Shown here in pieces: positions 26,989-57,150 of a DNA stretch of 64,000 nucleotides. Both the position numbers and the translations under genes were made by a program. The notes under the pieces are model-generated. The model worked only from the letters and a program-made list of their open reading frames with translations, was not told the origin of the DNA and made no database searches. Positions within the stretch are counted from its first letter, which is position 1. Each line of letters starts with the position of its first letter. The stretch is from Isoetes taiwanensis (lineage: Eukaryota > Streptophyta > Lycopodiopsida > Isoetales > Isoetaceae): positions 62,001 through 126,000 of the forward strand of contig JAJEKV010000418.1 in the NCBI GenBank assembly GCA_021234155.1, given 5' to 3'.

Positions 26989-26992
26989 CTGT

Positions 26993-28095: not shown

Positions 28096-28113
28096 CTTCC
28101 GTGTGAAAATCTT

Positions 28114-28126: not shown

Positions 28127-28129
28127 AAA

Positions 28130-31864: not shown

Positions 31865-32119
31865 CTACTACAGAGTACATACAGGTCAATACACTATACT
31901 CATTGATGCAGCAAGTGATATATATAGATAATAAGTGTGTTTGCAGTGAGAGACATCTTTGGTATTTCAAGCTACAGACAAAATATAACAAATCTATTTT
32001 ATTCTATTCTATTCTATATTATAAAGTTTTAGCGTATGTAATGAAGAAAACCCTACATCTAATTGCACCTGAAGGCCGAGATATATCACACGACTTCCCA
32101 CCACCATGATTGGCCATGC

Positions 32120-33595
32120 TCTAATGTCTGAAGAGGAAATGGAAAAGGAAAAGGGAGGAGAAAAGGGCAAAGTGAAAGGCAAAAAAGGCACGGGTAAAAA
32201 GGGAAAGAAAGAAAGGGAAAAAGGAAAGCTTAAAAGATAACGAAAAAGGGAAAGGAAAAAAAAAAATGACACTATGAAAAGGAGAAGATGGAAAGGATGA
32301 GGATAGGAGTAAAAGGGAAGTTGAAAGGGGGATGAGGAAAAGGGTAGAGAAAAGGGAAGGGAAAAGGAAAAGAGAAAAGGCAAGAAAAGGGAAAGGGAAA
32401 GGGGAGGAGGAGGGAGTGAAAAGGAACACTGGGAAAGGGGAAGACGAAAAAGGTGGGGAAATGATGAAAAGGGAGGATATAAAGACAAAGTGAAAGGCAA
32501 AACAACACGGGTAAAAGGGAAAAGGAAATGGAAAAGAGCACAAAAAAGAGAAAGGAAAAGAAAGAGAGAAAAAAAAATGAAAAAGGACACTATGAAAAGG
32601 AGGAGGGAAAGGGTGAGGACAGGAGTAAAAGGGAAGGGAAAAAGGGGATGAGAAAAAGGGTACAGAGAGGAAGGGAAAAGGAAAAGGGAAAGGGAAAAAA
32701 GGGAGAGGAGGAGGGAGCGAAAAGGGACAGTGGGAAAGGGGAAGAGAAAAAAGGTGGGGAAAGGAGAAAAAATGAAGGGAAAAAGGACACGAAAAAAAGG
32801 AAAGAGAAAAAGGGAGGGGAGAAGGGATGGAAAGGGTAAAAGAAAAAAACCAAGGGGAGGGGCAAAAGGGAAAAAGGGCATGGGGAAAAGAGGAAGAGAA
32901 AAGAAGGAGAGAAGCAGAAAAAAGGAAGAGAGAAAGGAGGAGGGAAAGGGGAAAGAGAAAAAGAAAAGAACAAAGGAGGGAGGAAAGGGAAAGAAAAAGA
33001 CTACGAGAAAAAGGGAAGAGGGAAAGAGTGGGCAAAGGGAAGGAATAAATGGCACTGTAAAAAGGGGAAGGGAAATAAAGGGAAGGGAAAAAAGACATGA
33101 GAAAAAGAAAGGGAAAAAGAAAATAAAAAGGAGGCAGAAGAGAGAAAAATGGTAGGGAAAAAGGGCACGAAAAAAAGCGAAAGAGAGAAAGGGTCGGGAG
33201 AGGAGGAAAAGGGAAGGGAAAAAGGCCATTGATAAAAGGAAAATAAAATAAGGTAAAATGAAAAAGGGAATGTGAAAAGGGGAGGGGAAAAAGGGAACGG
33301 GGGAGATAGAAAAAAGGGAAAAGCAAGGAGGGGAAAAATGGAAAAAAGGCAAACGTGAAAAAAATGGAAGCAAATGGAAAAAGGCAAAAGGGAAAAAACA
33401 GGGGGTAAAATGGGAAAATATAAAGGAATAGAATAGGAATAGGAATAGGAATAGGAATAGGAATAGGAATAGGAATAGGAATAGGAAGGGGAGGTGAATA
33501 AAAAGGAAGAGCAAAATAGAAAAAGAAAAAGAGAAGGAAAAAAAGGAAAAGGAGGGGGAGGGGGAGGAGGAAAAAGGTGAAGAAAGGGGAAAAGA
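32120..33595 (+). repeat. Long polypurine (G/A) tract, part 1
   Basis: About 1.5 kb composed almost wholly of A and G, in irregular GAAAAGGGAAAGG-type words with sparse C and T. It gives long artificial open frames on the minus strand (Ser/Phe/Pro/Leu only) that should not be taken as genes. It includes a clean (GGAATA)n run at about 33428-33486. Such mirror-rich purine tracts can form triplex (H-DNA). Confidence 0.9.
33428..33486 (+). repeat. (GGAATA)n microsatellite
   Basis: About nine perfect GGAATA units embedded in the purine tract. Confidence 0.95.
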
Positions 33596-36748: not shown

Positions 36749-38440
36749 TGAACAATACTAAAGAAGTTGGGATGTCACTTCAAATCAAGTTCTTGCCTGG
36801 ATGTAAGCGATCTTTTATTCAACAAGGAAAAACCATGGCAGTTTTAAAAGAAGAGAACTATTCTTTCACCAACCAGGCTCATCATGAGCAGGTGGCACGG
36901 TCACTCTCTTAACCTCATAAACACCATGCTCTTAAACCCACACAAGGTGGATAACAACCTTATATGTATCAGGATAACTTCTAGCAGAGGCCGTTGCAAC
37001 TCCCTGCAGTCAAGGATCGAGTTCCAAGCCCCTCTGCAGGCATCTATAAATTTCAGAATAGTTCATGGAGCAAATGATGGAATCCACATATTCTGGAGCC
37101 GATGGCAAGGTAGATCAGCAATTGCAATTAGAACAGGACGCGATCGGATTGCAGGACATGACTAATGCACTGCCACTAAGAGGAACTCATATTTATAGTA
37201 TGAGCAATACAGCAACAGCATTATTGTGTAGACATACGAGTATGCATGTGATTAGCACATGTAAAGGTGACACATGAAATATGCTAGAGTAGCTACAATA
37301 AAGAGCAACAATGCTACAGTAAAATTTCAGTACATATCTCTCTGAGTAGTGTTATTGGCCAAGCCAAAAAACTCCATAGTGATTCTCCAAGGTTTCTGCT
37401 CCTGCATGTGGTCTTTGTAATGGATGAGTGGCAGCAAAGCAGTCTGTCAATCTAATTCTAATATAATCAGGTCCCAAGAGCACTCCATGGCATGTTGTAG
37501 TTGGTGCCATGTTATCAACAATGCCTTTGCCAATTACATCTTTCCTGTTTTCTGCTAACAAGAAGCATGCTTCTCCAATGGAAAATTTTATTTCTCCTGC
37601 TTGATTGCTCATTTCTTTGACCTGTAAAGCTTTGTTAATTATGTTGCACAAGTTATGGCTCAATCCACTCATTTAATAGAAGAACTACCTGAGATATGGC
37701 AGCCTGGTCCAGCGCTTCAGCAAGCTTCCTTCTTGGCGACATCCCAAATTCGAATTAAAACACTGTAATGGAAACACAATTCTTGTGTTTCTCTAGAGGC
37801 AAGAGAGAAACACAAATTCCATGATCCAATGCGCAGCCAATAATGCTATAAATGGCCGGCATTTTTTAAATAGACAGTTAGTACAGGCCAATGATTGAAA
37901 AGTAGTTGGGAAAGGGACATTCGCGGGCAGGCTAAAAGTTTTTAAATTTTAAATTGCAGGCGGGATTAATTTTCTTATTCTCTTAAAAAGTAAGACCCGT
38001 GTAATAATTTTCATTAATTTTTGTACGACCCGTGTAATAATCACGGGTTTTCTAATTCCAATCTAATTTAAATCTCGTTTTTTCATTCCTAATCATTCTT
38101 CTCTGCTCGAGATTCTTGGTCACAGGGTTCCTCAGCACTAGCTTCACGACATGGTATTGTATGCAATAACAATAAATGAAATATTTATACAATGCCTACA
38201 TCACACTACGTGCCACAGTGCACGCGACACGTATGGACAATAATAATATGAAATACATAAGAAAGGCATATTAATTTACCAAATACAAATATGTCGCCCT
38301 GGGCGCGACTCATACAAAAGTATTCAATATTTCTGTTTGTGACATAACAGGTCTAGACACGTCAGCACATCTCCCATTTTGTATTTCTTTGAATCAAGAT
38401 AAATATCATTTCGCCATTCCAATCTTTGCAGGTTTTTTTG
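36749..38440. other. Intergenic stretch; weak transposon-like frame and a hairpin
   Basis: The minus-strand frame 37352-37672 reads '...DVIGKGIVDNMAPTTTCHGVLLG', somewhat like the 'GkG.V.....IHG..LG' region of a domain found near plant CACTA-type transposase genes. The likeness is weak. ACCCGTG-TAATAAT-CACGGGT near 38026-38046, followed by TTTCTAAT, could be another Helitron 3' end. No intact gene. Confidence 0.35.
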
Positions 38441-38889
38441 CTCAATGGGTTACCTAACTGGTTTGGTGCATGTCAATGCTACTAATGGAGTTCATGTCCA
38501 CGAGCAAGGCTTGGCCTTGAGCCTCACCAAAGTTCGGGACAGGGCACTTCACAGAGATATCTCGAAAGCCACCCTATTCAGGGATTTTCACAGATTGGTC
38601 CACAAGTTCGACCATGTCCTTCCAGTTTCTGAGGAGAAAGATGGATATGAAAGTGCAATGCAGCAAGTGGCAGACGTGCATGCGTGAGACTTGTCGCGCC
38701 ATACGTGAGATGTTGGTGCAAGATGCTTACTTAATACAGAAATACTTCAGCAATGGCTAACTTGGATATTTGTTTTATAGCTTCCAAGAGATCACTAGTT
38801 ACATCAACTATTGCATCCTCAAAGAAACCCAGGAAGGACCCCAAGGTAGTACAAGAAGAAACTGAGAAGATAGATCAAATGGCATCAAG

Positions 38890-39219
38890 CTAATTGATGA
38901 CGGCAGAGTCATAACATGCGAGCTAAGTTAAGACATGCTAGAGACAGTTTTGCCTGAGGGGTCTGAATGGTATGTTACTGTGAGCAGGGCAGGCTCAAAA
39001 TATGACGTGGTCTTGCATTCAAGGGAGAACAAAGATGCGACCTTCAAAAAAGTAGGGTTGGTTCTTTCATGCGAGGAGCTTGATGACGAGATCTTTGTCT
39101 TCATAATAGAGAAGACCGTAAAGAAGAATCTCAGCATTTCCAGATACAATATAGGTATAGACGAATTCATGCTAGATAAGACAGTAGACGGTGTTACGAA
39201 GTATGGCTGGCCCCTTTAA
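38890..39219 (+). pseudogene. Beta-rich domain of the fusion gene, unrecognised
   Basis: The frame around 38890-39219 reads 'IKLIDDGRVITCELS', a stop, then 'ETVLPEGSEWYVTVSRAG' and 'DEIFVFIIEKTVKKNLSISR'. The alternating hydrophobic pattern suggests a beta-sheet domain. I recognise no family. It lies directly upstream of the ParB-like part. A plausible splice acceptor (TCTGCAG) at 39268-39274 would join it to the next exon. Confidence 0.45.
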
Positions 39220-39276
39220 GCCTCACACCATATAGTTTGTTCTATATATGAAGATATATCTGCAGTCCGAAGAAGT

Positions 39277-39800
39277 TTGCAGAAGAAACCTGGTTTCAGT
39301 GGTAGTGGCGGTGCATTTGAGTCAGAAACATTGGCCCTAGTACCTTTGCCAAAGCCAGTGAAGGAAACAGATAGTGAAAAGAAATCGAGGGTTGACGCTG
39401 TAGACAAGCTTCTGAAGTTCAAGCAATGGTATCCACTTGGTTTGGATGTAACAAAAAGGATAGCCATTGACAAGCTGATAAGATCTCCTAGAGCATCTTT
39501 CATATCTAGGATCTTTAATCCAAAACATGCCCTGAGGATACAGAAGTCCATAGTTGAATTTCCCACCACAGTACCAAATCCAGCTGATGTTCTACCATGG
39601 GACTCAGTCAATGACAAGCCATACCCATGGAAGACATGGAATGACCTAAGGAAGAGCGACATGGAGCGCTACATTGTCATTGATGGACAACACTAAGTTG
39701 AGGCAACGAATAGAATCCTTAGTTATTACACGCCTCAACTTGCACTAACTATAATAAGTGCAGACTTGAACACAATTGCAAGGGCGGTACAATACAACTT
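39277..39800 (+). pseudogene. ParB/sulfiredoxin-like domain
   Basis: The key block is 'YIVIDGQH' (39671-39693), then a TAA stop, then 'VEATNRILSYY' in the same frame. This is the ParB/Srx signature 'iDGqHR..A....'. Upstream is 'IAIDKLIRSPRASFISRIF', the strand-loop expected at the start of the fold. In bacteria and phages this domain is often fused to DNA methylases. A candidate splice donor (TTGTAAGT, about 39800) follows, and an acceptor (CCATGCAG) ends at 39991. The phases do not match without an indel. Confidence 0.65.
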
Positions 39801-39834
39801 GTAAGTGACTATGTTTCTTAGTCTGCAGTAATCA

Positions 39835-39922
39835 ACTCGCGCTACGCGCAAGACGGTCTGCAATCTCGTGCGTAGCGCGAGTAAGTTTTTTATTATCTTG
39901 CTTCAGCATACTCGCGCTACGC
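39835..39922. repeat. Three copies of ACTCGCGCTACGC, two as a hairpin
   Basis: ACTCGCGCTACGC at 39835-39847 pairs perfectly with its reverse complement at 39870-39882. A third direct copy is at 39910-39922. All lie inside the likely intron of the fusion gene. CG-rich hairpins like this occur at transposon ends; no further sign of an element was found. Confidence 0.85.
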
Positions 39923-40189
39923 ACGAAATGGATATCTACATGGTACTAACTTATGGTTTTAAATTCTTATCTCATACCATATCCCATGCAGTTGAGGCAA
40001 GCTAGAAAGCAATGGATTGAGCTTGGCCATCCAATTTCAAAAAGAAAGAAGCAGGGGGAGAAGAAAGACAACTCCTACGAGGAAATGATAAAGATGATCA
40101 GCAAGGTCATCATACGAAAGAAGAAGGATATTGCAGAGAAGGAAGAGGAAACTGGCACCAAGAAGAAGAAGTCCAAGAAAGGCCCCTCT

Positions 40190-41409
40190 GATTCCTACTA
40201 CATACTGTTCAGTCCTGATCATGCGTGGGACAAATGGAATGAACTGTGGAACAAATGGACATCAGGAGAGCTTGTAGTAAAAGCAGGGAAACCTGAGAAA
40301 GGATCCCTTGAAGATTTTACCGTCACAAACTTGAGGAGTGCACAGGGGTTAAGGGAAGAAGAAATTTTCAAGGTCCTCCAGTCTATTATAGATGGACAGA
40401 TCTTTGCGAAAAAGATTTCAAAAATCAAAGATGTACCATCCTTTCCAGAGGCCTGCAAATCCATGAAAGACCTCCGTGTCATGAGGGAGGCTATCTCAAA
40501 GGAACTCTTTGAGATGTCTGGAATAGAAAACATATCTGCGCAAGGTATCTTGGACATGATGAAAATAACCGATGAAGACCTGCTCAGGTACTCAATGTGG
40601 TCGCCTGGATTTATTCAGACATATAAATCCAGGAACAAGGAAAAACCAGCTCATCTACCATCAAAGGTCCTTGTGGAGCTGAAGTGCAAAGTCAGTGGAG
40701 ACTTGGACATTCCTGAGACTGTCTCAGAAACCTACATGGTGAAGTCCTGTCAGGGTTCTCTAGTTGTTGCCACCCAGACTATTCCAAAGACAACTTCATT
40801 GTTTGTGGTGGACTGTCTAACATACCCTCAGGATATAGACTATTACATCTCCAGGCTCTCAAATTGTCTCAAGCAGACCACTGAAGAGTACATCACACTT
40901 GTGTTCCTGTCTGAACCTGCAGAGGAATATCCAAAGACCTTGTAGGCCACCACTCAGATAGAGGCCAATATGAGCGTACGCCACAGGGTGCTAATAGATG
41001 GAACGCCTGCTAAGAACAATCATGTCACACGTGGCATAACAATGATCACTTACGTGATCATAAATAAAGTAGCAGACGTAGTTTACGAGGCACACAAGAG
41101 TGGTCCCCAAAAGCTTCCCAGCCGATACTCAAATTTACAGAGAAGGAGAGCTTGGATAATTACCACTGGATGATCTTACCTCGAACCTGACCGCTAAGGA
41201 ATGTAAGAAGGAATTAGAGTACAAATAGGTGGGCCTGAAGGGAGGTGCAGTGAACAAGTACAGACTAAGCTCAAACTTGGCTTTCTACCTCGTGGATACA
41301 TTTGTACCCAAGGGAGGCTTAGTCTGTGACTACTTTGTCAATGGTAGGGTTGGGCGTGAAGCTCTAGCCAATGGCAGAAAAGTTCAAAGCTGGGTGGCCA
41401 CTGAGCAAC
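40190..41409 (+). pseudogene. N4/N6 DNA-methylase-like domain (beta motif order)
   Basis: The 39953-40945 frame carries a helical N part ('AWDKWNELWNKWTSGELV') and then 'SLFVVDCLTYPQDIDYY' (Asp at 40811), placed where the catalytic D/N-P-P-Y/F motif IV would be. After frame breaks, 41229-41409 gives 'LVDTFVPKGGLVCDYFVNG' followed by 'GREALANGRKVQSW'. This is the layout of the C-terminal SAM-binding block 'G..VlDpF.GsGt...aA..lgR'. Motif IV before motif I is the beta-class order of phage and bacterial methylases. Neither the DPPY nor the FxGxG core is canonical, so the domain may have lost activity even before the gene decayed. Confidence 0.5.
41405..41409. repeat. Target-site duplication of element D, left copy
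   Basis: GCAAC, repeated at 55847-55851. Confidence 0.8.
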
Positions 41410-42159
41410 TGTGACGAGCCTGCCGAGTTGACCCTCCAGGTAACTCGGAATCTTGTCAAAACTTGCACATTCTAGCTTGTTAATGGTGGTGAAGAATCGA
41501 ATCTTCCTTTTGCACAATTGAAACTTAACCCATTACTAGAAATCCATCCTCATTGAGATACAATATATTCCCACAATCCATCAAGAATACAAATTCAAAG
41601 GATGTACTATCCACAATACTCTCAATGTATATGCATAAATGTTAAAATTATGTGTCATGTGATATTCGAGCATATAAGGGGATTAGTGACCACATCTTGG
41701 CTCCCCTAGGCTAATGAGGATTCATACAAGCATTCATGAGAAGCAGTGGCAGTGAATGCAAGAAAAAAACATAGAAGTTGGCAGGTACTACCTGCACGCG
41801 TTACTGGGCCGCCGAAAACGCTTGATACCCCCCTGCCCGCCACTTAGGGTTTTGACTGGTCAAACGGGTCAAAGTCAACGACAGCTGGAACTTAAGGACA
41901 GCAGGGCATCCTATTATTTAGGCAAGTTGGAAAACTTTCTATATGAAGGGCATGCACGATTTAACAAGTGGATACATCCAGGTTGATGAGAAAATATATA
42001 GATGAATGATGGTGATAGAAAATAATGAGCTGAGTGCAGATACAAGTGCGTGTATGCAAGTTAAGGAGCGGGTGGGTTTGAAGGAGACAGAGATTGGTAT
42101 ACTTGGGTTCAAACCCCAAGCTCTGATTCTAACATTGGTATCAGAGCTAACTAGTTCCT

Positions 42160-43231
42160 GCCCTGTGATAATGACAACCCGATTCGGGGGCAAATGCTGA
42201 ACTCTATTGAAGTCTTTAAAAGGAGATGGAGGATTTCAAATCTGGAAGGAGGGTATTAGAGGTGTGCTGGAGTTTGAAAAGTTGTGGTATTTGTTTGATG
42301 GTAGTTCAGTAAGCGGTGCAACTAGCTCAGGTAATTCAACTGCTGCTAGTAGTAGTAATGCTCAATCTGGTGCAGGGGGAACTTCAGGTGAAGCAAGGGC
42401 AACTTCTCTGAGTTCTGGAGTAGAAGATGAAGTTAAGATTATGGAGGCCCAGGCCATAATCATGTGTAAGGTAGGCACTGCTTTAAAATTGAAGCTTCGA
42501 GGCATGAAGCCTAAGGAAATGTGGGATTATTTGATAAAGCACTATGAACAAAAAAGTTCTTCACAAATAGATGTGCTAGAAAAACAGTTAAGGAAGATGA
42601 AATTGTTTGAGAAGGATAACCTGACTGACTTTTTGGAGAGATTTGATTCCATTATTGCAGATCTTGAGGGAGCTGAAAATATCTTGAATGAACAGTATCA
42701 AATACTTGCTTTAGCAAGAGCAGTATCTCATAATAGTCACTTGGCAACTTTACTCAGAAATGTAGCCTCTTCCAAGGAGCATGCTATCAATTATAACGCA
42801 TGTGAGTTTTGAACAGTCTACTATTACACAGAGGAAGTCGGATCAATCCTCGAGAGGTCTTGTATACTGGTAAGACTAAAAGAGGTGGTTTTGCAAGAAG
42901 GAAAGTAGGACCTTGTTATGCATGCAAACAATTTGGTCACCTAAAGAGTGAATGTCCAAACAATAGTGAGAAGGAATTTAGATGTTTCAATTGTGAAGGC
43001 AAAGGGCATTTTGCTTTTGATTGCCCAAGTCCTAAAAAGGGAAGAGGTCGAGGGGGATTCTCTGAAACTTATAGAGGTGGCAGAGGCCGGGGAAAATTCA
43101 AAGGAGGCCCAAGTATTAATGTGGTAGGAAAGCAAGATAGTAGTGAAGGTGAACTTTCAGAGTTTCCAAGGAAAAGCAATAACCAATTTGTTGTTATAGA
43201 TTCGGGAGAGAAAAAAAAGTGTGATGTGTGA
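42160..43231 (+). pseudogene. Copia gag with two zinc knuckles
   Basis: The frame 42207-42812 and its continuation 42809-43231 (a shift near 42810). The UBN2-type capsid part includes 'IIMCKVGTALKLKLRGMKPKEMWDYL' blocks and 'LRKMKLFEKDNLTDFLERFD'. A Ser/Gly-rich insert lies near residues 33-70. Two CX2CX4HX4C knuckles follow: 'CYACKQFGHLKSEC' and 'CFNCEGKGHFAFDC'. The end reads 'QFVVIDSGEKKK', the start of the aspartic protease (D-S-G). Confidence 0.88.
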
Positions 43232-44450
43232 CTTGCATATGCTTAAGGATTGGGAAAAGAAGGAAGGACATGTGCAACTTGGTGATGGAGGTTTGAAGAA
43301 AATAGAAGATACCGGAGTTTTAGAGTTGTTTGACTTAAATGGCAAAACTGTAAAATTGAGAGATGTTTTGTGTGTGCCCAGTCTTGTTAGAAATCTCATA
43401 TCCGTATGCCGACTTGTGGATTTGGGATATAAAGTCGTTTGAACAGTCCAGTTGTAAAAGTATTTCTTAATGGTGAATTAAAGTTTATTGGCAAAAGAGT
43501 TGGTAATCTCTTTGGATTGGATATGGAGCATCTTCATGAAATTAATCTTGTGGAATATTCAGATGTGAAAATATGGCATAACAGTTATGTCATGTAAATG
43601 CCGCAATAATTAAAAGACTTGGAGAAAAGGGATTAATATCCGCCAAGGTACAAAATGAAAAGTTCTTATGTGGGGATTGTCAATTTGGAAAGCAATCAAG
43701 ATTGCCATTTAAAAGGTCACACAAAAGAGCAAAGGGTATTTTGGATTTGGTGCACCTGCATTTATAATGTTACTAGTTTGAGTGGGCATAGATATTTCAT
43801 GAGTTTTATTGATGATTTCAAGTGAGAAAAACCAAGTGTTATATTTTGAAAACAAAAGACCAAGCTTGTGATGCTTTGAAGTTATTTCTTGCTGAAAACC
43901 GAGCTAGAAACCGGAAGGAAGATAAAGTGCATAAAGGTCATTGAGGAGGTGAATATATCTACGATGAATTTAAAGCTTTTTTGCAAACAGGGAATCGGGA
44001 GGCAATTGACATGCGATACTCATCACAACAAAATGGAGTTGCAGAAAGGAAAAATAGAACATTGCTTGATCTTTGTGGAGGTCCATGTTGAAGTACTGGC
44101 TTACCAAATTATTTATGGGATGAAGTCTGTGAAGACTACCGTCTACATTCAAAACTTGTTACCATCATCAAGTATTAAAGGTGCAATTCCAGAAATGCTT
44201 TGGTCTGGTAAGTCACCTTCTTATGATAGATTAAAAGCATATGGGTGTTTATGCTTTGTACATGTGCCTGAAGAACTAAGGAAAAAGTTGGATGATAGAG
44301 CATACATATCTTATCTAGTAGGGTATGATTCTAACTCGAAAGCATTCAGATTATATGATCCTGCTAGAAGAAAAATTATAGTGAGTAGAGATGTGGTCTT
44401 CAATGAAAATGAATTTTATAGGAAAATTCCCAAGATAAATACTAAAGATC
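43221..44450 (+). pseudogene. Copia protease end and integrase, broken
   Basis: The 43221-43442 frame holds the protease C-terminal part ('VLCVPSLVRNLISVCRLVDLGYKV'). Integrase pieces follow in changing frames: 'CQFGKQSRLPFKRSHKRAKG' (about 43680-43735), 'GHRYFMSFIDDF' (about 43785-43820), an 'SSQQNGVAERKNRTLLDL' block (about 44020-44070, with the catalytic Glu), and 'AIPEMLWSGKSPSYDRLKAY'. At least four frame breaks. Confidence 0.82.
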
Positions 44451-46384
44451 CATGTGAAAGTGAAAGGAAAGATAGTATTGAAGAAGTAAATCAGTCAATA
44501 AGTGAAGAGGAAAAAACTCAAGGATTGGAGCAGGTAGATTTGAGTGACTCTGATAATGAGTCAGAAATGATTCCAAGTAATGTTGTTGAGCCAGAAGTGG
44601 AATCAAGTGCTGAGCAAGAGATTGAACACCAAGAGGCAGAAGTTGATAAAATTGATAGACCAAAAAGAAAACCCAGACGAACAGAAGCTCAAATGTTGGC
44701 AGAAGAAGCCAAACATAATTTAGAGTCTCATGGTAGAACTGAACTTGGGAAAAGTAAAAGACTTAGATCTCAGGTAGGAGAAATTAATACTGTATTTGAC
44801 ATTTTGATACTTGAAACAGACAAGATTCCACAAAATTATATGGAAGCAGTTCAAGATAAGAATGGAAAGAACTGGAAATGTGCTATGGAAGAAGAAATGA
44901 GAGCATTCAAAAGAACAGACACTTATACAGTGGTAGATATTCCTTCTGATAAGAATATAGTTGGAAGTAAGTGGATCTATAGAATAAAACCAGGAGTAGA
45001 CAAAAATACTAAGAAATTCAAAGGAGACTTGTTGCATGGGGCTTTACACGAAAAAAGGGGAAGATTTTGATGAAACATTCTCACCATTGGTAAAGATAAA
45101 TAGTTTGAGAATGTTATTAGCTATTGCTAATGCTATCATATGGATGTAAGTACAGCATTCTTGAATGCTAAATTAGAGGAGGAAATTTATTTAAGACTGC
45201 CCCTGGGTTTGAAGAGGAAAAAGGAAAAATTTGGAAGTTGAATAGAGCAAAGTCTATGGTCTTAAACAAATCTCTAGGAATGGTATAAATGTATGGATGG
45301 ATATCTTGTAGAACAAGGTTTTGAGAAGCTCAATTATGATGGTAATATCTATAGGTTCAAAATGGGAGATGTCTGGTGCATTATCGCTTTATATGTTGAT
45401 GACAATATTATGATATCAAAGGGAACTCAAGTACTAAATCATTGCAAAGATATCTTAAAGAAACGATTCCAAATGAGTGATCTTGGAGAATTAAAGAGGT
45501 TTCTGGGCATAGATGTTTACAGGGACAGAAATCACAAGATATTAGCTTTGAGTCAACAAGGGCATATTCAAAACATGTTGAAGAAATTTCATATGGAAGA
45601 TTGCAATATGGCATATACTCCTATGGTTCCGGGTCACAGAATTTCTGCAGATATGAGCCCAAAGACAGAAACAGAAAGCAAACAAATGGAGAAAATACCT
45701 TACAGAAGTTTGATTGGTTGTTTGTCCTATGTAGCCAATTGTACTAGGCCTGACATTGCATTTGCAGTTAATATTCTCAGTAGGTACAATGACAAGGCTG
45801 GTAAAGGACACTGGAATGCAGCAAAAAGGATTCTCAAATACTTGAAAGGTACAATGCATTTTGGTATAGTATTTAATGGAACCAACTTGCAATTGCAGGC
45901 TTATTGTGATGCTGATTGGGGAGGAGATTTAGATAAACGAAAATCAACTTCAGGGTATGTTATTTTATTAGGTGGAGCCCCAGTTGCTTGGAAGTGCAAG
46001 AAGCAAAGCAGCATTGCTTTATCTAGTGCTGAAGCTGAGTACAACTCAGCAGCCCTGTTGACTAAGGAACTTATTTGGGAAAGAAGGCTTATGGCAGAAT
46101 TTGGATTTGCTCAAAGAGGACCAACAATCATTTATTGTGATAATACTAGTTGTATTGCTATGACAAAAAACCCAATTCAGCATGAAAGATCAAAACATAT
46201 TGATATGGAGGTTCATTTTATCAGGGATATGGTAAAGAAGGATCAGGTGCATTTAACTTATGTTAGTTCACAAGATCAACGAGCAGATATACTTACAAAA
46301 GCCTTACCATTGTCCAGATTTGTGGAATTAAGAAGTTTGCTACACTGTGACAACATGGAATATCACATGAAGGGGGAATGTTAA
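44451..46384 (+). pseudogene. Copia reverse transcriptase and RNase H
   Basis: An acidic linker is followed by RT blocks 'NWKCAMEEEMRAF', 'GSKWIYRIKPG' (to 45070) and a broken stretch 45060-45290. The clean frame 45293-46384 then has the catalytic 'ALYVDDNIMIS' (YVDD) and 'SDLGELKRFLGIDV'. RNase H has 'AYCDADWGGDLDKRKSTSGY', 'ALSSAEAEY' and 'HIDMEVHFIRD', ending at 46382-46384 just before the polypurine tract. The catalytic residues look intact; the frameshifts lie upstream. Confidence 0.9.
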
Positions 46385-48103
46385 AATTATGTGTCATGTG
46401 ATATTCGAGCATATAAGGGGATTAGTGACCACATCTTGGCTCCCCTATGCTAATGAGGATTCATACAAGCATTCATGAGAAGCAGTGGCAGTGAATGCAA
46501 GAAAAAAACATAGAAGTTGAAAAGTGGTGAGCAGGTACTACCCAGACGTTGCTACGGCCGTCAGAAAACGCTTGATACCCCCTGCCCGCCACTTAGGGTT
46601 TTGACTGGTCAAAGTCAACGACAGCTGGAACTTAAGGACAGCAGGGCATCCTATTATTTAGGCAAGTTGGAAAACATTCTATATGAAGGGCATGCACGAT
46701 TTGACAAGTGGATATATCCAGGTTGATGAGAAAATATATAGATGAATGATGGTGATAGAAAATAATGAGCTGAGTGCAGATACAAGTGCGTGTATGCAAG
46801 TTAAGGAGCGGGTGGGTTTGAAGGAGACAGAGTCTTGGTATACTTGGGTTCAAACCCCAAGCTCTGATTCTAACAATAAATACTACTAAGCAAGCTAAAC
46901 AAAAGCTTTTTAACTCCAGATCACAACCACGATCCTCAGCTACATTGCTACATCCGCGCAACCACTGCCTTGCTTGTTCACTGCACATGCACTCACTAGA
47001 TTTAGACCTCGTGACTAAGTGGGGATCCCTAGCTGCCTCTGCATGCATGGACATACTCTGGAAATATTGGATAAGCACAAACACAGACGAAAAATCCTAC
47101 ATGAGTACAATGCTAAGACAATGACAACATAATCCAATGAAATACCAAACATGAACATCAGAAGCAAAGAACATAGCCAAAACACCAAACCATCATGACA
47201 CATAGCTCCCGGACAATGGGAAGCTCAACCAACCTACATGCAGGCCTTGTTAGCAGAGAAATGCCTAGCCAACTCACATTCCGAGCCCTGTTGGCGGAGT
47301 TGGTGGGGTAAACCTCGTATGCGTATACCCTTCCCAGCCCACGTCTGGCGCTGGAGGACCTCTTATCATGGAGTCACAGAGGTGACGTAGCATTCTGATC
47401 AGGAAAACTATGCCCGGTGTCACAGAGCACAAGAATACCAACAGAGAATCACAGATGAACATGAGCATGCCGAAGCAACCTAGGCCACCGAACCTAGAAG
47501 TCCGACCCGGGAGGTTCCAATGTGCCTATATTATATTGCTGCTGATGTTGCCCATACAACCTACTCATGTTGAAGCGACCTCAGCGATGAAGACTAGAAT
47601 AACAATTTCAAAGATGAAGAAATATCAAGTCATGTTACCACATTGATGTAAATCCAACGTCGTGCACTTTGTTGAACAAAGTAGAGATCTAAGCATTCTC
47701 CAATATGCAAAGCTTACCTTCGAATCATTTCCTCTATAAGGACTGCAAATATACTCATATCAATATCACTCACTATTTATATTAACAAGTGTTTCTTATT
47801 GCCAACGCAGGACTCCTTGCATAACCACATTGTAAAAGCCCCATAAGCTTCATATTCAGATACTCTCTTCACCCTAGGAATGTGAATCTCACCCAAATTC
47901 CTGACGCTACATCGAAGTTCCCATATTGACAGTAAATTACTTAGCTATGGTTACTCATGTTTTATATTTAAAATCCACATCTTTAGCTTATGCATTCAAT
48001 TGGCACAACTAATGTGAAACCTCAAGCCAACACTTCCAACTTAAAAATCCATAAGGTCTCATGACCGTAACTGCTTCTATCCCATGACAAGTTATTGTAG
48101 GCT

Positions 48104-48838
48104 TAGACTTCATAAATTATAAAAAAAGACCCCGGCTAGCCTTTGTAAGAGGTCTAAATGATACAAGGAAACATAGCTGCAAGTACAAATCAGGAGAGAA
48201 AGAGGGCGGTCTATCTTTTCCAGTGTTGCCCTAGCTGCAGTGCGATCGTGGCGCCAAGAAATATGTTTTTTTTCCAGTTTTTTCCAATGTTGCACGTTAT
48301 GACTCTTAAAGGCATGGGAACTTGGATTCTATTGATTTGATCTTTAAGTCTTTTGAGTTCTATGACATCCGTATCTTCTCCTTGTGTTGTGTAATGTTCT
48401 ATCTTATGCTCTTTGAATTTGGCCTTTAGCAAATTCATAAATCTCGCTTTCCTTCCTCTATGTTGGGGTATATCTCCTTTCTTTCCGAGGTGTACTCTTT
48501 TACAGTTTCTATGTGGATTCCTGTTTGTGCAACCTTACTTCTAGTAACCGTATTCAGATCCGTGAATTTTTCTTCCAAACTTATCATTCTCATTCTTAGG
48601 TTCCATTCTTGCTTCTCCCAAACTTAGGTTCTTCTTTTCTTGAGGTCATTTTTGCCATAGAATCCTTACAATCTCTTGCAAAGAGCCCCTTGATGCCACA
48701 CTTTAAACATTCTACCTCAACCTTGTCTCCCTTTTTGAATGTTTTCGTGGGATGTGACACCTTCGGGGAGCCAAATTTACGGTCGGTCTTTATTCTTATA
48801 ATTATATCATTTATTCTCTTAGTTAAACATGACTTCAA
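48104..48838 (-). pseudogene. Gag-like fragment inside LTR D2
   Basis: This lies in or at the edge of the block found in LTR D2 but not in D3. The minus-strand frame 48838-48596 contains 'CLKCGIKGLFARDC', a CX2CX4-x-X4C zinc knuckle in which the usual His is Leu. Downstream frames (48438-48211) are charged and coiled-coil-like ('LKAKFKEHKIEH'). It is probably a remnant of another retroelement's gag, or of gag once carried by family D. Confidence 0.45.
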
Positions 48839-49757
48839 CCATTCATAGAATGCAAGATCTTATTACTTGTTATTTTTATGCCTAGCTTTTCATGCTCCAA
48901 TCTCCCTGCTGCTAAGCTCAGATGCAATCCAATTCCATCCCTGGGTATTTAGCTTTATATTATGACACACAATTAAATTGACAAAAATAACGAATACAAG
49001 TCTAACAAGATAAATCACAAAACACAAAATGACAAAAATATAACATGAACACAAAATGGCGTTGGAGAGCTTGGTGCTGACCAGATCCAATAGAATTCTG
49101 CTTTTCTGAAGTTTTTGTGCTGAATCGACGCTTTTCAAGCAAATTTTGGCCATTATTGACTTATATCAGCCCTTACAGAGATGTTTCCAATCATTGATTA
49201 CCTTCTCTAGCCTTATGAATCTCCAATAAATTCATAGTTTATCATATTTGCATACAAAAATCATGTACAGACTAATCATGGCAACTCATAGCGCCTCAAT
49301 TGATCAATAGCAAAACCCCACCTGAGAATTTCTTCGTTCATAGACCTCTGGACCCCTTGCAATTGGTTGCGCCTCCAAAGATCACCTTTTAACTCCAATA
49401 ATCAAACTGCTAAAGAACATACATAGTGCAGTCAATTCTGACCCACCATCACAATTTCTATCATAACTTTCTCATACAGATGAGCTTCAGCCTGATCAGA
49501 CCCATTCCAGAAAGCTTACTTCAAGATCTTTCCACCAAAAGAATAATCAGCTGAAAAGGATCTCGAGTCGCCGAGATATGATGCTTCAAATTTTGAGCTC
49601 CAAAACTACCCGTAATTGCTCCCCTCGCGCTCATGCTCTACAACAATCCTTTCTCCAAAGAGATAAAACCCTAATCTCATGCTACATACATGCCATGAAT
49701 ATGTATATACGTATATAAATACGTATATGGACCCATCAGGTGGCCAGGACCGTTACA

Positions 49758-50056
49758 GTCTCCCCTTCTAAAATTTAACCCATGTCCTCATAGGTTGATC
49801 ATTGATTTGGTGAAGCAATTCTCCAACAACTTATAGAATTAATATGCAATGCCGACTTATTCACAAATTCATACCTCAGTATCATCAAGGGTTGCTCTCG
49901 TTGCTTATATGGAGACTTCTCCCTTGAATACTTCTATAGTAACCACGAAGCCTCTAAATACTACTCCTTCCCCTGAGGATAGCATTTCTAGATCTCTCTG
50001 CGATCCACATATCATAATGTCAACACCCAAGGATTCAACATTGCTCTGATACCAAC
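49758..50056 (-). other. Interior of element D with PBS and PPT, no gene
   Basis: 299 bp between the LTRs. It contains the primer-binding site at one end and the polypurine tract at the other, and no meaningful open frame on the element strand. Confidence 0.85.
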
Positions 50057-53000
50057 TGTGACGAGCCTGCCGAGTTGACCCTCCAGGCAATTCGGGATCT
50101 TGTCAAAACTTGCACATTCTAGCTTGTTAATGGTGGTGAAGATTTGAATCTTCCTTTTGCACAATTGAAACTTAACCCATTACTCGAAATCCATCCTCAT
50201 TGAGATACAATATATTCCCACTATCCATCAAGAATACAAATTCGAAGATGTACTATACACAATGCTCTCAATGTATATGCATAAATACTGCTAAGCAAGC
50301 TAAACAAAAGCTTTTTAACTCCAGATCACAACCATGATCCTCAGCTACATTGCTGCATCCGCGCAACCACTGCCTTGCTTATTCACTGCACATGCACTCA
50401 CTGGGGTTAGACCTCGTGACTAAGTGGGGATCCCTGGCTGCCTCTGCATGCATGGAAATACACTCGAAATCTTGGATAAGCACAAACACGCAATTTAAAA
50501 AATCCTACATGAGTACAGTGCTAAGACAATGACAACATAATCCAACGAAATACCAAACATGAACATCACAAGCAAAGAACATAGCCAAAACACCAAACCA
50601 TCATGACACATAGCTCTGAGACAATGAGAAGCTCAGCCAGCCTACATGCAGGCCCTGTTAGCAGAGAAATGCCTAGCCAGCTCACATTCCGAGCCCCGTT
50701 GGCAGAGTTGGTGGGGTAAACCTCCTATGCAAGATACCCTTCCCACGCCCCGTCCGCCGAGGACCTCTTACCATGGAGTCATAAGAGGTGACGTAGCATC
50801 CTGATCAGGGAAACTACGTCCTGTGTCACAGAGCACATGAGTACCACAGAGAATCATAGATGAACATGAGCATGCCGGAGCAACCTAGGCCACCGAACCT
50901 AGAAGTCCGACCTCAGAGGTTCCAATAGACATAATCAAATACCAAGACACAATGGAATAATGCAAAGACCAAGACAGGTGAAGTTCATTACAATATTTTC
51001 TAAACATGTTCCTACATTATACTACTGCTGATGTTGCCCATACAACCTACTCATGTTGAAGCGAGCTCAGTGATGAAGACTAGAATAACAATTCAAAGAT
51101 GAAGAAATATCAAGTCATGTTACCACATTGATGTAAATCCAACGTCGTGCACTTTGTTGAACAAAGTAGAGATCTAAGCATTCTCCAATATGCAAAGCTT
51201 ACCTTCGAATCATTTCCCCTATGAGGACTGCAAATATACTCATATCAATATCACTCACTATTTATATTGACAAGTGTTTCTTATTGCCAACGCAGGACTC
51301 CTTGTATAACCACATTGTAAAAGCCCCATAAGCTTCATATTCAGATACTCTCTTCACCCTAGAAACGTGAATCTCACCCAAATTTCTAGCTGGACCAAAA
51401 TAAAAAATACAAAAATTTCCGTGACTTCCTAAGGTGGGAGATATCATGTTTCTACAAAGTGTGCATGTATGGCCAAAGTTTTGCCCAACCGGATGTGTGG
51501 TGAGTTGGTATAGGCCTAGTAATGCCAAAATAAATGTGCACTTGGTCTGGGGTTCAAACCCGCCAAAGGTATGTTTATATTTGGGAGTTAACATGGTTAA
51601 AACGACCATGATCCCCGGCGTGGGTAGAACTTGTGCTATAATTGTCCTCCACTTTGTTTGCCTTGACCTTTTATGGGATATTTCTAGCTAGATGCATACA
51701 AGATGATATTCTAGTGACAAAGTCTAGCTGGACCAAAATAAAAATACAAAAATTTCCGTGACTTCCTATCATTGATATCCCGCCATACAAAGTGGCATGT
51801 ATGGCTAAGTTTTTGCCCAAGCGGATGTGTGGTGAGTTGGTATAGGTTTATCAGTAATGCCAAAATAAATGTGCACTTGGTGGGGTTCAAACCCGCCATT
51901 GTATGTTTATATTTGGGAGTTGGTTCTGAGGGTTAGAACCATGATCCCGATGTGGTAGAACTTGTGCCTATCATTGATCCTCCACTTTGGTTGCCTTGAC
52001 CCGCAAAGAGGATATTCTAGCTAGAATCAAACCGGATGATATTCTAGTGACAAGACTAGTCTATTTGGACCAAAAATAAAAATACAAAAATTTCCGTGAC
52101 TTCCTAAAGGCGGGAGATATCCGCTTACAAAGTGTGCATGTATGGCTAAAGTTTTTGCCCAAATCGGATATGTGGTGAGTTGGTATAGGCCTAGTAATAC
52201 CAAAATAAATGTGCACTTTTTTGGGGTTCAAACCCGCCGGTGTATGTTTATATTTGGGAGTTGCATTCTTGAAGGGGTTATACGACCATGATCCCACGTG
52301 GTAGAACTTGTGCCTATCGTGTCCTCCACTTTGGTTGCCTTGACCGCGAATGGGATATTCTAGCCAGTCCTGCACTGCATGATATTCTAGTGACAAGACT
52401 AGTCTAGCTGGACCAAAAATAAAAATACAAAAATTTTCGCGGACTTCCTAAGGCAGGAGATATCCCGCCACAAAGTGTGCATGTATGGCTAAAGTTTTGC
52501 CCAATGGATGTGTGGTGAGTTGGTATAGGCCTAGTAATGCCAAAATAAATGTGCACTTGGTGGGGGTTCAAACACGCTGAGAGTATGTTTATATTTGGGA
52601 GTTGGTTGGGGTTAATGGCCATGATCCCAGAACATTGGTAGAACTTGTGCCTATCACGGTGTCCTCCCATTGGTTGCCTTGACCGCAGTGGGATATTCTA
52701 GGCTCCACTTTGGTTGCCTTGACCGGCAAAAGGGATATTCTAGCTAGTGTACTGGATGATATTCTAGTGACAAGACTAGTCTCAAATGGACCAAAAATAA
52801 AAAATACAAGTGCTACCACCCAAGACAATGATCCAAGTTTTTATTTTTATTTAAGGTCCATGCTAGACTAATCTTGTAGAGACTAGCACTGCCTTATATC
52901 CCATTTCGCCTCATGGCAGCCAAAGTGGAGGACACGATAGGCTTTTAAGTTCTACCACGTCGGGATCATCATCGAGATAACCCAAGTAACTCAACTCCCA

Positions 53001-55846
53001 AAGATAAATATACATTGACAAGGTTTGAACCCATGACCAAATGAACATTTATCTTGACATTACTAGGCCTATACCAACTCACCACACATCCTGGGCAAAA
53101 TTTTGCCTTACATGCATACTTTGTATGGATATCTCCGCCTTTAGGAAGTCACGAGTATATTTTATTTTTTGTTTAAGGTCCATGCTAGACTAATCTTGTA
53201 TGCACTAGCTAGTTATATCCCCCATGCCTCATGGCGGCCTAAAGTGGAGGACACGTATAGGCTTTTAAGTTCTACCAACGTCGGTAATTCATAACTAACT
53301 CCCAAAGATAAATATACATTGGCAAGGTTTAAACCCATGACCAAATGAACATTTATTTTGGCATTACTAGGCCTATACCAACTCACCACACATCCGCAAT
53401 GGGCAAAACTTTTGCCTTACATGCACACTTTGTAGTAGGTGTGATATCTCCCGCCTTTAGGAAGTCACGAGTATTTTTTATTTTTGTTTAAGGTCCATGC
53501 TAGACTAATCTTGTAGAGACTAGCTAGCCATATCCCACATCGCCTTGGCAGCCAAAGTGGAGGACATGATAGGCTTTTAAGTTCTACCACGCCGGGTAAC
53601 CCCAAGAACTAACTCCCAAAGATAAACATACATTGGCAAGGTTTGAACCCATGACCAAATGAACATTTATTTGGCATTACTAGGCCTATACCAACTCACC
53701 ACACATCCGGGCAAAACTTTTTTTACATGCACACTTTGATAGCACTTGTATTTTTTTTTTTTGGTCCAATTCTAGACTAGTCTTGTCACTAGAATATCAT
53801 CCGGCATGCACTATCCTATGCCGGTCAAGGCAACCAAAGTGGAGGACACGTGATAGGCACAAGTTCTACCACGTTTCGGGGATCATGGCCGTGATAACAT
53901 AACCAACTCCCAAATATAAACATACACCGCGGGTTTGAACCCCCACCAAGTGCACATTTATTTTGGCATCACTAGGTCTATACCAACTCACCACACATCC
54001 GCTGGGCAAAACTTTAGCCATACATGCACACTTTGAATTAGTGGATATCTCCCCCCTTTAGGGTGTCACGGAAATTTTTGTATTTTTTTATTTTGGTCCA
54101 AGCTAGACTAGTCTTGTCACTAGAATATCATCCGCACAGACTAGCTAGAATATCCCTTTCCGGTCCAAGGCAACAAAGTGGAGGACACGTGATAGGCACA
54201 AGTTCTACCCGTCGGGGATCATGGCAGATAACCCCAAAGAACCAACTCCCAAATAAAAAACATACAATGAAAACCGGGTTTGAACCCCCAGCCAAATGCA
54301 CATTTATTTTGGCATTACTAGGCCTATACCAACTCACCACACATCCGTTGGGCAAAACTTTAGCCATACATGCACACTTTGTAAGGGGATATATATTTAA
54401 AATCCACATCTTTAGCTAGATCTTTTTTTTTATTTTGGTCCAGCTAGACTAGTCTTTGTCACTAGAATATCATCTTGTCTGCACTATCCTCGCCGGTCAA
54501 GGCAACCAAAGTGGAGGACACATATAGGCACAAGTTCTACCACGTCGGGGATCATGGCCGTGATAACCCCAAGAACCAACTCCCAAATATAACACACACC
54601 GGCCGGGTTTAAAACCCCCACCAAGTGCACATTTATTTTGGCATTACTAGGCCTATACCAACTCACCACACATCCGTTGGGCAAAACTTTAGCCATACAT
54701 GCATGCTTTGTGGTCATGTTTTATATTTAAAATCCACATCTTTAGGGCACAACTAATGTGAAACCTCAAGCCAGCACTTCCAACTTAAAAATCCATAAGG
54801 TCTCATGACCGTAACTGCTTCTATCCCATGCCAAGTGATTGTAGGCTCAGTCTTCATCTTCAGGACACCTTCAGGAACCAAATTTACAATTTGTCTTTAT
54901 TCTTATAATTATATCATTTATTCTTTTAGTTAAACATGACTTCAACCATTCATAGAATGCAAGATCTTATTACTTGTTATTTTTATGCCTAGCTTTTCAT
55001 GCTCCAATCTCCTCTGCTGCTAAGCTCAGATGCAACCCAATTCCATCCCTGGGTATTTAGCTTTATATTATGACACACAATTAAATTGACAAAAGTAATG
55101 AATACAAGTCCAATAAGATAAATCACAAAACACAAAATGACAAAAACATAACATGAACACAAAATGGCGTTGGAGAGCTCAGTGCTGACTAGATCCAATA
55201 GAATTCTACCTTTCTGAAGTTTTCGTGTTGAATCGATGCTTTTCAAACAATTTTTGGCCATTCTTGACTTAGAATCAGCTCTTGCAGATATGTTTCCAAT
55301 CATTGATTACCTTCTCTAGCCTTATGAATCTCCAATAAATTCATAATTTATCATATTTGCGTGCAAAAATCATGTACAGACTAACCATGGCAATTCATAG
55401 CATCTCAATTGATCAATAGCAAAACCCCACTTGAGAATTTCTTCGCTCATAGATCTCTAGACCCCTTGCAATTGGTTGCGCCTCCAAAGATCGTCTTCTA
55501 ACTCCAAGAATCAAACTGCTAAAGAACATACACAGTGCAGTCAATTCTGACCCAGCATCACAATTTCTATCATAATTTTCTCATACTGATGAGTTTCGGC
55601 CTGATCAGATCATTCCGAAAGCTTACTTGAAGATCTTTCCAAAGAAAAGAAAAATCACCTAAAAAGGATCTCGAGTCACCGAGATGTGATGCTTCAAAAT
55701 TCGAAGCCCAAAACTGCCTAATTGCTCCTTGCCTTCATGCTCTACAATAATCCTTTCTCCAAAGAGATAAAACCCTAATCTCATGCTGCATACATGCCAT
55801 GAATATGTATATACGTATATAAATACATATATTGACTCATCAGGTA
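50057..55846 (-). repeat. Element D 5' LTR (D3) containing a repeat array
   Basis: Collinear with D2 from the TGTGACGAGCC end to about 51382, then interrupted by the array 51383-54716, then collinear again to 55846. Without the array it is about 2.5 kb, close to solo LTR D1 (2.43 kb). Confidence 0.82.
51383..54716. repeat. Head-to-head array of ~10 tRNA-like (SINE-like) units
   Basis: Four units of about 337 bp run on the plus strand (starts near 51385, 51722, 52060, 52402), with a partial fifth near 52787. About six units then run on the minus strand (near 52836, 53160, 53475, 53745, 54080, 54425). Each holds GTGGTGAGTTGGTATAGGCC, like a pol III A box, and about 45 nt later GGTTCAAACCC, a B box, in the layout of a tRNA gene. 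Units are joined by CTAG-rich sequence (GATATTCTAGTGACAAGACTAGTC). Copies differ by small indels. A tRNA-derived SINE amplified in place, or a satellite made from one, would explain it. Confidence 0.75.
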
Positions 55847-55851
55847 GCAAC
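55847..55851. repeat. Target-site duplication of element D, right copy
   Basis: GCAAC. From here the reading frame of the interrupted gene resumes. Confidence 0.8.
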
Positions 55852-56304
55852 AAAAAGAGTTTCTGGAGCTATATTATCCCGGTGTGGAGAAGCATCATCT
55901 GACATATCAAGGAATGCAAGCACAGAGGAAGAATTGACAAGGTCAAAAGGATGCAGAGAAGAAGGAGAGAAAGAACAAGGAGGCACAACAAGAGTCTGAG
56001 GAGGAGGATGTAGGGGATGGCACTTTAGAAGAAACTATCTCTGATGAAGAGTCTGCTTCTGAAGAAAGTGAAACTGAATCAGGAAGTCCATCATCAAAAT
56101 TGCCACCAATCATGGATCCACTAACTTAGGAGAAGTTGGCGCAGGCCTTACCAGAAGAGGAGAGAATTCTTGAGGTAAATCCATAGGACCAGATATACAG
56201 AATGCTTCTGTTCTTCCTGAACAAACCGACCTTAGTCCTATCAGAGCTGAAGAAGAAGATAGGACATCCAGGATGGGAGAAAAGACGACTTCACCCACAA
56301 AAGA
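55852..56304 (+). pseudogene. Fusion gene: acidic linker exon after element D
   Basis: This continues the methylase frame from 41409. 'KEFLELYYPGVEKHHL' closes the methylase-like part, then Lys/Glu- and Glu/Ser-rich sequence follows ('ESEEEDVGDGTLEE', 'ISDEESASEESETESG'). Stops TGA 55935, TAG 56127 and TAG 56184 are in frame, and a one-base loss near 56184 moves the frame. After it 'SVLPEQTDLSPIRAEEED' runs to the splice donor GTAAGC at 56305. Confidence 0.7.
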
Positions 56305-56437
56305 GTAAGCCATCTACGCCTTCTGTAGCGAAGTTCTTTTATTATATCGACCAATTTTTCAGCATGTCTTATGCATAGCGCGTGTATTACTCTTGAATTT
56401 CAATAAAAAATTTTAACTTAAAATATGCATTGTGCAG
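56305..56437 (+). other. Predicted spliceosomal intron (133 bp, phase 2)
   Basis: Donor AAAAGA|GTAAGC at 56305 and acceptor ATTGTGCAG|A ending at 56437. The interior is T-rich. Joining the flanks gives an uninterrupted frame '...TSPTKEEETTPNNN...' leading straight into the FCP1 motif I. This supports both the intron and the unity of the gene. Confidence 0.65.
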
Positions 56438-57030
56438 AGAGGAGACTACTCCAAATAACAACAAACTTATTCTCTTCGACCTGAATAGAGTTCTTATCAA
56501 GTCCTTTTCCAAGCAAAGTACAGTGCTGCACCTCCTTTTCCTGGAGTGGTTCTAGATACAAAGACCAAATGGGTGTATCCAAGACCAGGTGTTCACAAAT
56601 TGTTGAGCCATCTGAAGGACAGAGCCAGCATTGGTATATGGTCATCCATGTTGAGAAACAATATATTAGAAATTAAAGAGAGCTAAAGAACTTCGATTTC
56701 TACATTATTTTAGATCAAGGTAATTGTGGGATTGTTCGTCGACCACAACATGGAGCAAAGAATATCTTCATCAAGAATATACATGAGGCCTTGGAGGTGA
56801 TAGAAGGATTTCCGTGTAAGAGCATATATGTTTGGTGGATGATGACACCATCGAAAGTGTTGCTTTGAATGTAGACAACATCATAAATCCGGACATGGCA
56901 CCCAAATAATGTAGATGAAGAGAATTGGATGTCGCTATAAATACTACGATGTTTGACTCCCTCATATTAGCCCCCATGCGCCTACTTCCCCAGTAATAGA
57001 CCGTGATTTGCAAGGAAAAGCTTAACCCTA
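56438..57030 (+). pseudogene. FCP1-like HAD phosphatase domain
   Basis: Motif I is 'KLILFDLNRVLIK' (56462-56500), with D-x-N where active FCP1/SCP enzymes have D-x-D. After a frame shift come 'YPRPGVHKLL' and 'ASIGIWSSMLRNNI' (motif II region), then 'GAKNIFIKNIHEALEVI' (the conserved Lys block) and 'VDDDTIESVALNVDNIINP' (motif IV acids, near 56834-56890), and finally 'WHPNNVDEENWMSL'. This is the order of the NIF/FCP1 homology family, which removes phosphate from protein Ser/Thr. At least three frameshifts are needed. The D-to-N change resembles plant FCP1-like relatives presumed inactive. Confidence 0.7.
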
Positions 57031-57122
57031 CGCATTCTATGATCCGTTGTAAAAAATTATCACAATGAAAAATATATCTAGATTTGTAAAAATTCCTTGT
57101 ACATGTACATAACTTATAAGAA

Positions 57123-57150
57123 CTAGTTATGGTGCCCGGCGTTGCCGGGC
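57123..57150 (-). mobile_element. Helitron 3' end (minus strand)
   Basis: On the minus strand: hairpin GCCCGGC-AAC-GCCGGGC (57150-57134), then seven bases, CTAG (57126-57123) and T. It matches the 3' end at 36721-36748 at 25 of 29 positions, so both are members of one family. The body would extend to the right; I could not find its 5' end. Confidence 0.55.

Follow-up and report, generated by a model that had tools for sequence, protein, structure and literature searches.

A long gene with an FCP1-type domain in Isoetes taiwanensis, very probably the second gene of a large DNA transposon that also carries a DUF7869 gene

The window analyzed here is a stretch of 64,000 nucleotides from the lycophyte Isoetes taiwanensis (assembly GCA_021234155.1, contig JAJEKV010000418.1, positions 62,001 to 126,000 of the forward strand), and plain coordinates below refer to it. 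A preliminary description, made from the letters alone, placed at 38445..57030 a dead copy of a plant gene joining ParB-like, DNA methylase-like, and FCP1 phosphatase-like domains and took it for a member of an ancient, partly foreign gene family. That view missed the carrier. The anatomy of the locus is, with high confidence, that of a large DNA transposon with terminal inverted repeats (TIRs), whose second gene survives in the window as a dead copy, the other gene encoding a DUF7869 protein. Carriage by a DNA transposon together with the DUF7869 gene accounts for the copy number of the long gene, its many dead copies, and their dispersion.

What delimits the element? Its 3' end, located by copy alignments and a genome search, lies at 62357..62597 (+ strand) and closes with the TIR TGGAATAATTTCAAAATAACGAAATCGTGGTT (62566..62597), a terminus common to the copies. 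Ten of 13 distinct copies aligned share the terminus ...AATCGTGGTT, with small variants, after which the flanks are unrelated; the other three stop before it since the fetched stretch ends. When the last 148 bases (62450-62597) were compared with the genome, all 40 scored matches (from 221 candidates), lying on many contigs, reached the final base. By a hand count from the tables, 20 of these 40 have, on the same strand and no more than 6 kb upstream, a scored match to the long gene, and the window's own end match lacks one because of its inserts. No 5' terminus was found in the window, where the best match is 21 of 32 bases. The 5' end comes from copies on two other contigs. That on C985 starts with AACCCGATTCCATTATTTTAAAATTATTCCA, 10.1 kb from its 3' end, with a 31-base variant of the TIR and AGAG on both outer sides. 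That on C1034 is internally inverted; its displaced 5' part starts within two bases of the C985 one and is 94.8% identical to it over 1.6 kb. This part opens with AACCACGATTCCATTATTTTGAAATTATTCCA, of which 30 of 32 bases agree with the 3' repeat of the same copy, and ATAG stands on either outer side. Both complete copies thus have TIRs of about 32 bases with 4-bp target-site duplications (TSDs), and the element carrying the gene is likely to be a large TIR DNA transposon, 10.1 kb long in C985. A Helitron-type end was also considered and dropped, as TIRs are present. The 4-bp TSD makes Sola, or another named superfamily with duplications of this length, a candidate affiliation. We know of no earlier report of this element, our literature searches being confined to open-licence papers.

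Between the 5' end and the first exon of the long gene (exon A), these copies carry a minus-strand frame, open for 644 codons in C1034 (L048:5613-7544) and for 504 in C985. The two frames match the Pfam family DUF7869 (PF25273) with E values of 9.1e-38 and 2.5e-37, respectively. C1034 has additional N-terminal coding sequence, apparently in another frame, and the gene is clearly intact in neither copy. Pfam states no function for DUF7869, and a search of the open-licence literature found no paper naming it. By eye, the protein contains the motifs DKMDQ, QLDNCAGQNKNR, and HTHEDIDAMF, an arrangement that is D...D...D/E-like. From these motifs and its place in the element, it is probably a DDE-type transposase.

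The long gene appears in the window as coding pieces of about 80-331 codons, collinear and in order on the + strand, whose translated open reading frames (ORFs) are interrupted by stops and frameshifts; the copy is dead, just as first described. The exon A block (38149..38684), with the N-terminal exon MGYLTGLVHVNATNG... starting at 38445, is displaced relative to copy C985, to which it is 80% identical over 475 bases in the same frame (73% amino acid identity over 66 residues). The second coding piece (38783..39219) is frameshifted, contains stops, and at the DNA level is about 83-91% identical to other copies. Next comes the ParB-like piece (39220..39800), reading IDKLIRSPRASFISR...IVIDGQH*V, with a TAA at 39694-39696 and a deletion of about 71 bases at 39710/39713. 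A spacer that looks intron-like by eye, GTAAGT...GCAG (39801..39991, splice phase not settled), separates it from the methylase-like piece (39992..41409). The latter has an altered motif IV (VVDCLTYP) followed by an altered S-adenosylmethionine (SAM) motif I (LVCDYFVNGRVGREALANGRK), and its lesions are a TAG at 40943-40945 and a frameshift near 41120-41170. Far downstream lie a broken linker piece, KEFLELYYPGVEKHHL... plus an acidic stretch (55854..56310), and an FCP1/NIF-like domain in pieces (56439..56905), with FDLNRVL (motif I, D-x-N), VYPRPGVHKLLS...GIWSS, LDQGNCG, and LVDDDTIES. All these pieces are on the + strand.

Do the pieces ending at 41409 and those starting at 55852 belong together? 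Between them are 14.4 kb of nested inserted repeats (41410..55846), not present at the corresponding point in copies L004-L008. In these genomic copies, window 41405-41407 passes straight to 55846-55851. Sequence comparison around the insert identifies a 5-bp TSD, GCAAC, at 41405..41409 on the left and 55847..55851 on the right. An intron of about 14 kb is ruled out by the contiguity in L004-L008. An unnamed protein of 348 residues in ENA (P0001) is 82% identical to the piece at 39950-40942, covering 52% of it. It spans the methylase-like part through SWVATEEQKEFLELYYSDVEKKHLT (...SWVATEEQKEFLELYY...), joining the window's 41.4-kb end to its 55.85-kb start and, like L004-L008, the methylase-like part to the linker. 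The two halves are one gene, because P0001 reads through and L004-L008 are contiguous there. The preliminary description was therefore right to treat the domains as collinear parts of a single gene. It had asked whether intact relatives would show them as separate genes; the relatives read are contiguous, and a distant subfamily (about 35% identity) keeps the parts in this order. The span it gave does hold the coding pieces but also takes in the 14.4-kb insert, and the end of the element is at 62597 rather than 57030.

A search of the I. taiwanensis assembly with the piece at 39950-40942 returned at least 129 matches. Stops interrupt six of the best eight, the open ones being that of the window and one on C1032, 99% identical to it. 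In a large protein set, the same piece has a single match, P0001; neither the read-through sequence nor the two-subfamily alignment found any protein among the scored candidates, about 8000 sharing most words. Viral contigs yielded no confirmed relative with either of two family alignments. A PDB sequence search gave nothing for P0001 or the ParB piece and one weak match for the NIF piece.

Five of the at least 129 genome matches are only 34-35% identical to the window piece. Two of them, L043 and L044, were read. Both have the methylase-like and NIF parts in the order of the window copy, and the ParB-like part was read in L043. They share an exact end, ...GAATGATGGTT (...GATGGTT; GGTT), beyond which their flanks differ. 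One of these two copies of the second subfamily, the one on C1106, is preceded on the minus strand by a DUF7869 gene with about 46% identity (E = 4e-124). The pairing of the long gene with DUF7869 is thus old, being kept in a subfamily of about 35% identity where the upstream side is legible in one copy. Between the two genes of the subfamily copy lies a minus-strand frame of 495 codons (L049:4315-5799), hAT- or zinc finger-like by eye, which is probably another inserted element.

Has the long protein mattered to the element? Measured on open frames only, with columns in stretches below 60% identity dropped and with non-independent pairs, which counts against leaning heavily on the values, the pooled ratio of nonsynonymous to synonymous differences (pN/pS) is 0.56 in the ParB-like part (15 pairs, 6 sequences) and 0.50 in the methylase-like part (21 pairs, 7 sequences); the corresponding rate ratio (dN/dS), from a single pair in each case, is 0.55 for the transposase and 0.30 for subfamily 2. 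This suggests that the long protein was maintained by selection during the active time of the element.

The domain at the C-terminal end is the one best recognized by profile. The Pfam family NIF (PF03031; gathering score, 21.8) matches L040 with E = 1.3e-8 (35.2 bits) and L043 with E = 7.8e-6 (26.1 bits). Other pieces of L043 and L044 stay under the cut-off (E = 0.0013), as does the window piece at 56534-56680 (E = 0.0031, 17.6 bits), and three other window pieces of the domain gave no Pfam NIF match. The FCP1/NIF assignment, already made in the preliminary description, is confirmed by profile in the relatives, where it is well supported. Motif I of the NIF family is D-x-D, within the catalytic motif DxDx(T/V). 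In the window it reads FDLNRVL and in L043 FDMNGVL, i.e., F-D-(L/M)-N-x-V-L; the catalytic motif is absent at this position in both, with D-x-N in its place.

What about the parts upstream of it? A Pfam scan of the window pieces, P0001, and the relatives tested reported no ParB and no methylase, the window pieces and P0001 having chance-level matches only. A PHROGs scan was likewise weak: the best match was that of P0001 to a minor head protein (E = 0.018), ahead of matches to an HNH family (E = 0.11) and a ParB-like family (E = 0.17, covering the motif only), all taken as chance. Profiles of the two parts were also compared by hhalign with 33 phage and viral sequences, non-redundant at 85%, that came from 9 phage methylases and, for 98 viral loci, from their longest frames. 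For the methylase test, five plain methylases were added, Escherichia coli YhdJ among them. Two of the comparison loci, L056 and L059, were checked with Pfam and have both ParB_N and N6_N4_Mtase, ParB_N in L059 being just under the cut-off. The best methylase match is to SAM motif I of YhdJ (LAFYLMQTFIPKGGLACDYFVN-GRVGREALANGKK in the family profile), with E = 0.025, and 1 of 191 scored column shuffles is equally good (9 of 200 shuffles had no score). Against a combined ParB-methylase profile, the alignment of the methylase part fell elsewhere and was not significant. The best ParB match sits exactly on the IDGQHS/IGGHQR motif, with 39 of 200 shuffles equally good against the ParB profile (21 of 100 in an earlier run).

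Methylases of this family have the catalytic motif (D/N/S)PP(Y/F) and the SAM motif DPFxGSG. The long protein departs from both, with DC(L/R)TY and DSRTA for the former and CDYFVNGRVG and CELHVGGYIG for the latter, and the DGQHR of the ParB-like motif is altered to DGQHS. Nor is the ParB-type signature "DGQH...VEATNR" intact, as had been thought. Besides the TAA at 39694-39696, there is the deletion of about 71 bases, which makes "VEA|TNR" a deletion junction, and relatives that hold the missing bases (e.g., L002, L003, L004, L006, and L009) read DGQHSVEAAKALIEKMDK / DGQHSVEAAKALIEKMDKIGAKEY across it. The earlier domain names survive in part. An absence of ParB or methylase matches in profile searches was to count against the preliminary description, and with Pfam both do lack a match; the methylase keeps marginal profile support at SAM motif I, while ParB has the motif and an hhalign score that is not significant. 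On balance, the methylase-like part is probably methylase-derived, while the odds that the ParB-like part, recognized from its motif, is truly ParB appear even.

How might the two genes work together? We propose that the DUF7869 protein would move the element, with the long protein as its partner. The ParB/methylase-like part of the latter may bind DNA, either the element ends, aiding transposition, or host chromatin. The NIF domain may have a phosphorylated partner, e.g., the tail of RNA polymerase II, that it binds or acts upon. As an outcome, the element would get expressed or evade silencing. Three changes make binding seem likelier than catalysis: the ParB-like motif reads DGQHS instead of DGQHR, motifs IV and I of the methylase depart from those of the family, and motif I of NIF is D-x-N. 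That the long protein is a DNA- or chromatin-acting factor, as the preliminary description also supposed, is plausible, though we hold it only tentatively. An anti-silencing role in particular would be unlikely on present evidence. We would put no higher the more elaborate idea of a pseudo-enzyme with ParB-like, methyltransferase-derived, and FCP1-type parts that marks or shields element DNA or retains RNA polymerase II as counter-silencing, its parts perhaps tracing to a phage-type ParB-methylase.

Three known systems bear comparison. VANDALs are TIR elements. In Arabidopsis they carry VANC anti-silencing proteins (PMC5735166, PMC10398659). As there, a second element-encoded gene is kept with the element here, with a possible role in chromatin control; the parallel is a functional one, and no kinship by sequence is claimed. 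The differences, drawn from description, are the DUF7869 gene, the 4-bp TSD, and a second protein made of NIF, methylase-like, and ParB-like parts. Phage ParB_N plus N6_N4_Mtase fusions (L056, L059, and others) have the same order of ParB motif, motif IV, and motif I, but here the ParB-to-methylase part takes about 725 residues (in a composite) rather than about 420, a NIF domain is added, and the catalytic motifs are altered. With the NIF/FCP1 phosphatases (PF03031), the long protein shares a profile match above the cut-off in two subfamilies and a retained VDDD motif; it differs in the D-x-N of motif I (window and L043), in the fusion to a ParB/methylase-like part, and in being borne by a transposon.

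Several observations weigh against the transposon reading as a whole or in part. Complete ends, and hence the 5' end, are known from two copies only, one of them (C1034) internally inverted. For the other 20 of the 40 matches to the 3' end, no gene match was scored within 6 kb. Subfamily 2 gave no recognizable 5' terminus, and on C943 the upstream sequence fetched, rich in N, yielded no DUF7869 match, a negative of little weight. None of the copies read has the long gene intact, L043 and L044 being frameshifted as well. AlphaFold2 models were poor (mean predicted local distance difference test scores of 37.0 and 47.6) and unfit for a fold search, and the role of the long protein is one that we infer.

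Could this instead be an ordinary lycophyte gene family, duplicated, with transposons inserted nearby by chance? The GT...AG intron-like spacer and the coding constraint would suit such a family, as would the half of the end matches that come without the gene. Yet its copies stop at one exact base with unrelated flanks, an end of this kind recurs in the subfamily of about 35% identity (L043 and L044), as does the transposase-like gene upstream (C1106), and in two copies TIR and TSD enclose the gene and the DUF7869 gene together, all of which makes a plain family very unlikely. Capture of a host gene in a single event, with the gene then riding along as cargo that does nothing for the element, would account for the NIF domain, such domains being ordinary in plant proteins, and TIR transposons of plants do pick up pieces of host genes. 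Cargo, though, would hardly be expected to keep its part order in two subfamilies at about 35% identity for the gene and 46% for DUF7869, or to show constraint similar to that of the transposase pair, and we regard this explanation as improbable, if slightly less so than the ordinary family.

The foreign origin put forward in the preliminary description, with a eukaryotic FCP1 domain attached to a ParB-methylase fusion and a product that works on chromatin or DNA, shares ground with the transposon reading. It draws on the phage-like order of ParB-like motif, motif IV, and motif I and on the YhdJ match that so few scored shuffles equal. Set against these are the empty Pfam result, the ParB score that many shuffles reach, the altered catalytic positions, and the failure to confirm a viral relative. 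With no relative in the viral contigs and none among proteins beyond P0001, in searches of limited scope, the idea is narrowed, and it seems to us somewhat doubtful. Descent from a large DNA virus of plants that once integrated would fit the high copy number and the unusual domain mix. It fits poorly with a defined 10.1-kb element having TIR, TSD, and a DUF7869 gene; the viral contigs held no relative, with no systematic search for hallmark genes made, and this origin is extremely improbable.

If the transposon reading is true, its consequences would be several. (i) A further type of transposon would be recognized, its marks being AACC...GGTT ends, duplications of 4 bp, and a transposase of the DUF7869 family, and DUF7869 would gain a likely function. 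(ii) An element would have retained a long protein with a CTD (C-terminal domain) phosphatase-type domain across deep divergence. (iii) Lycophytes would have a transposon-borne chromatin or transcription factor comparable to VANC. For annotation, copies of this kind may get called host "FCP1" genes.

The window copy has been further remodeled. Inside the 14.4-kb insert lies a Copia-like element (by eye), with long terminal repeats at 41638-42134 and 46377-46875 that are 93% identical, and at 51385-54745 a cluster of repeats of about 140-1020 bases, mutually similar (74-89% identity) and partly inverted. Copy L002 (G000:C1032:3680540-3684532) is 97-98% identical to the window copy and has the insertion point near 41408 in common, without the Copia-like element; it is either a segmental duplicate or a second haplotype. 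A second insertion within the transposon, of 5.2 kb, occupies 57123..62356, a place where three other copies run from about 57122 to 62357 uninterrupted. Position 57122 is accordingly ruled out as the element end, since other copies continue and the window resumes at 62357. An internal block of the transposon, block X (36774..38101), is 85-92% identical to gene-adjoining blocks in three other copies. Its order is swapped in the window, where it precedes exon A; in C985, exon A comes first and block X after. A minus-strand ORF of block X (37355-37672) is kept in four copies (LGPDYIRIRLTDC...GESVGSFLAWP in L039); it has no Pfam match above the cut-off and is possibly a third protein of the element. 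Within the intron-like spacer, at about 39829-39926, sits a small palindromic repeat, ACTCGCGCTACGCGC...; copies L003 and L004 have similar words in the sequence upstream of them.

Elsewhere in the window, an open frame of 1124 codons (14878-18252) is endonuclease plus reverse transcriptase-like, of the long interspersed nuclear element (LINE) type by eye, and is adjoined by LINE-like frames at 8006-9625 (-) and 10077-13039 (+). Gypsy-like gag/pol pieces, with integrase and RNase H-like parts (by eye), lie on the minus strand at 22848-28131. A long purine-rich, low-complexity stretch at 32001-34000 (GC skew, 0.62; AT skew, 0.57) yields false long ORFs, and a weaker purine-rich stretch resembling it is found at 36-37 kb.

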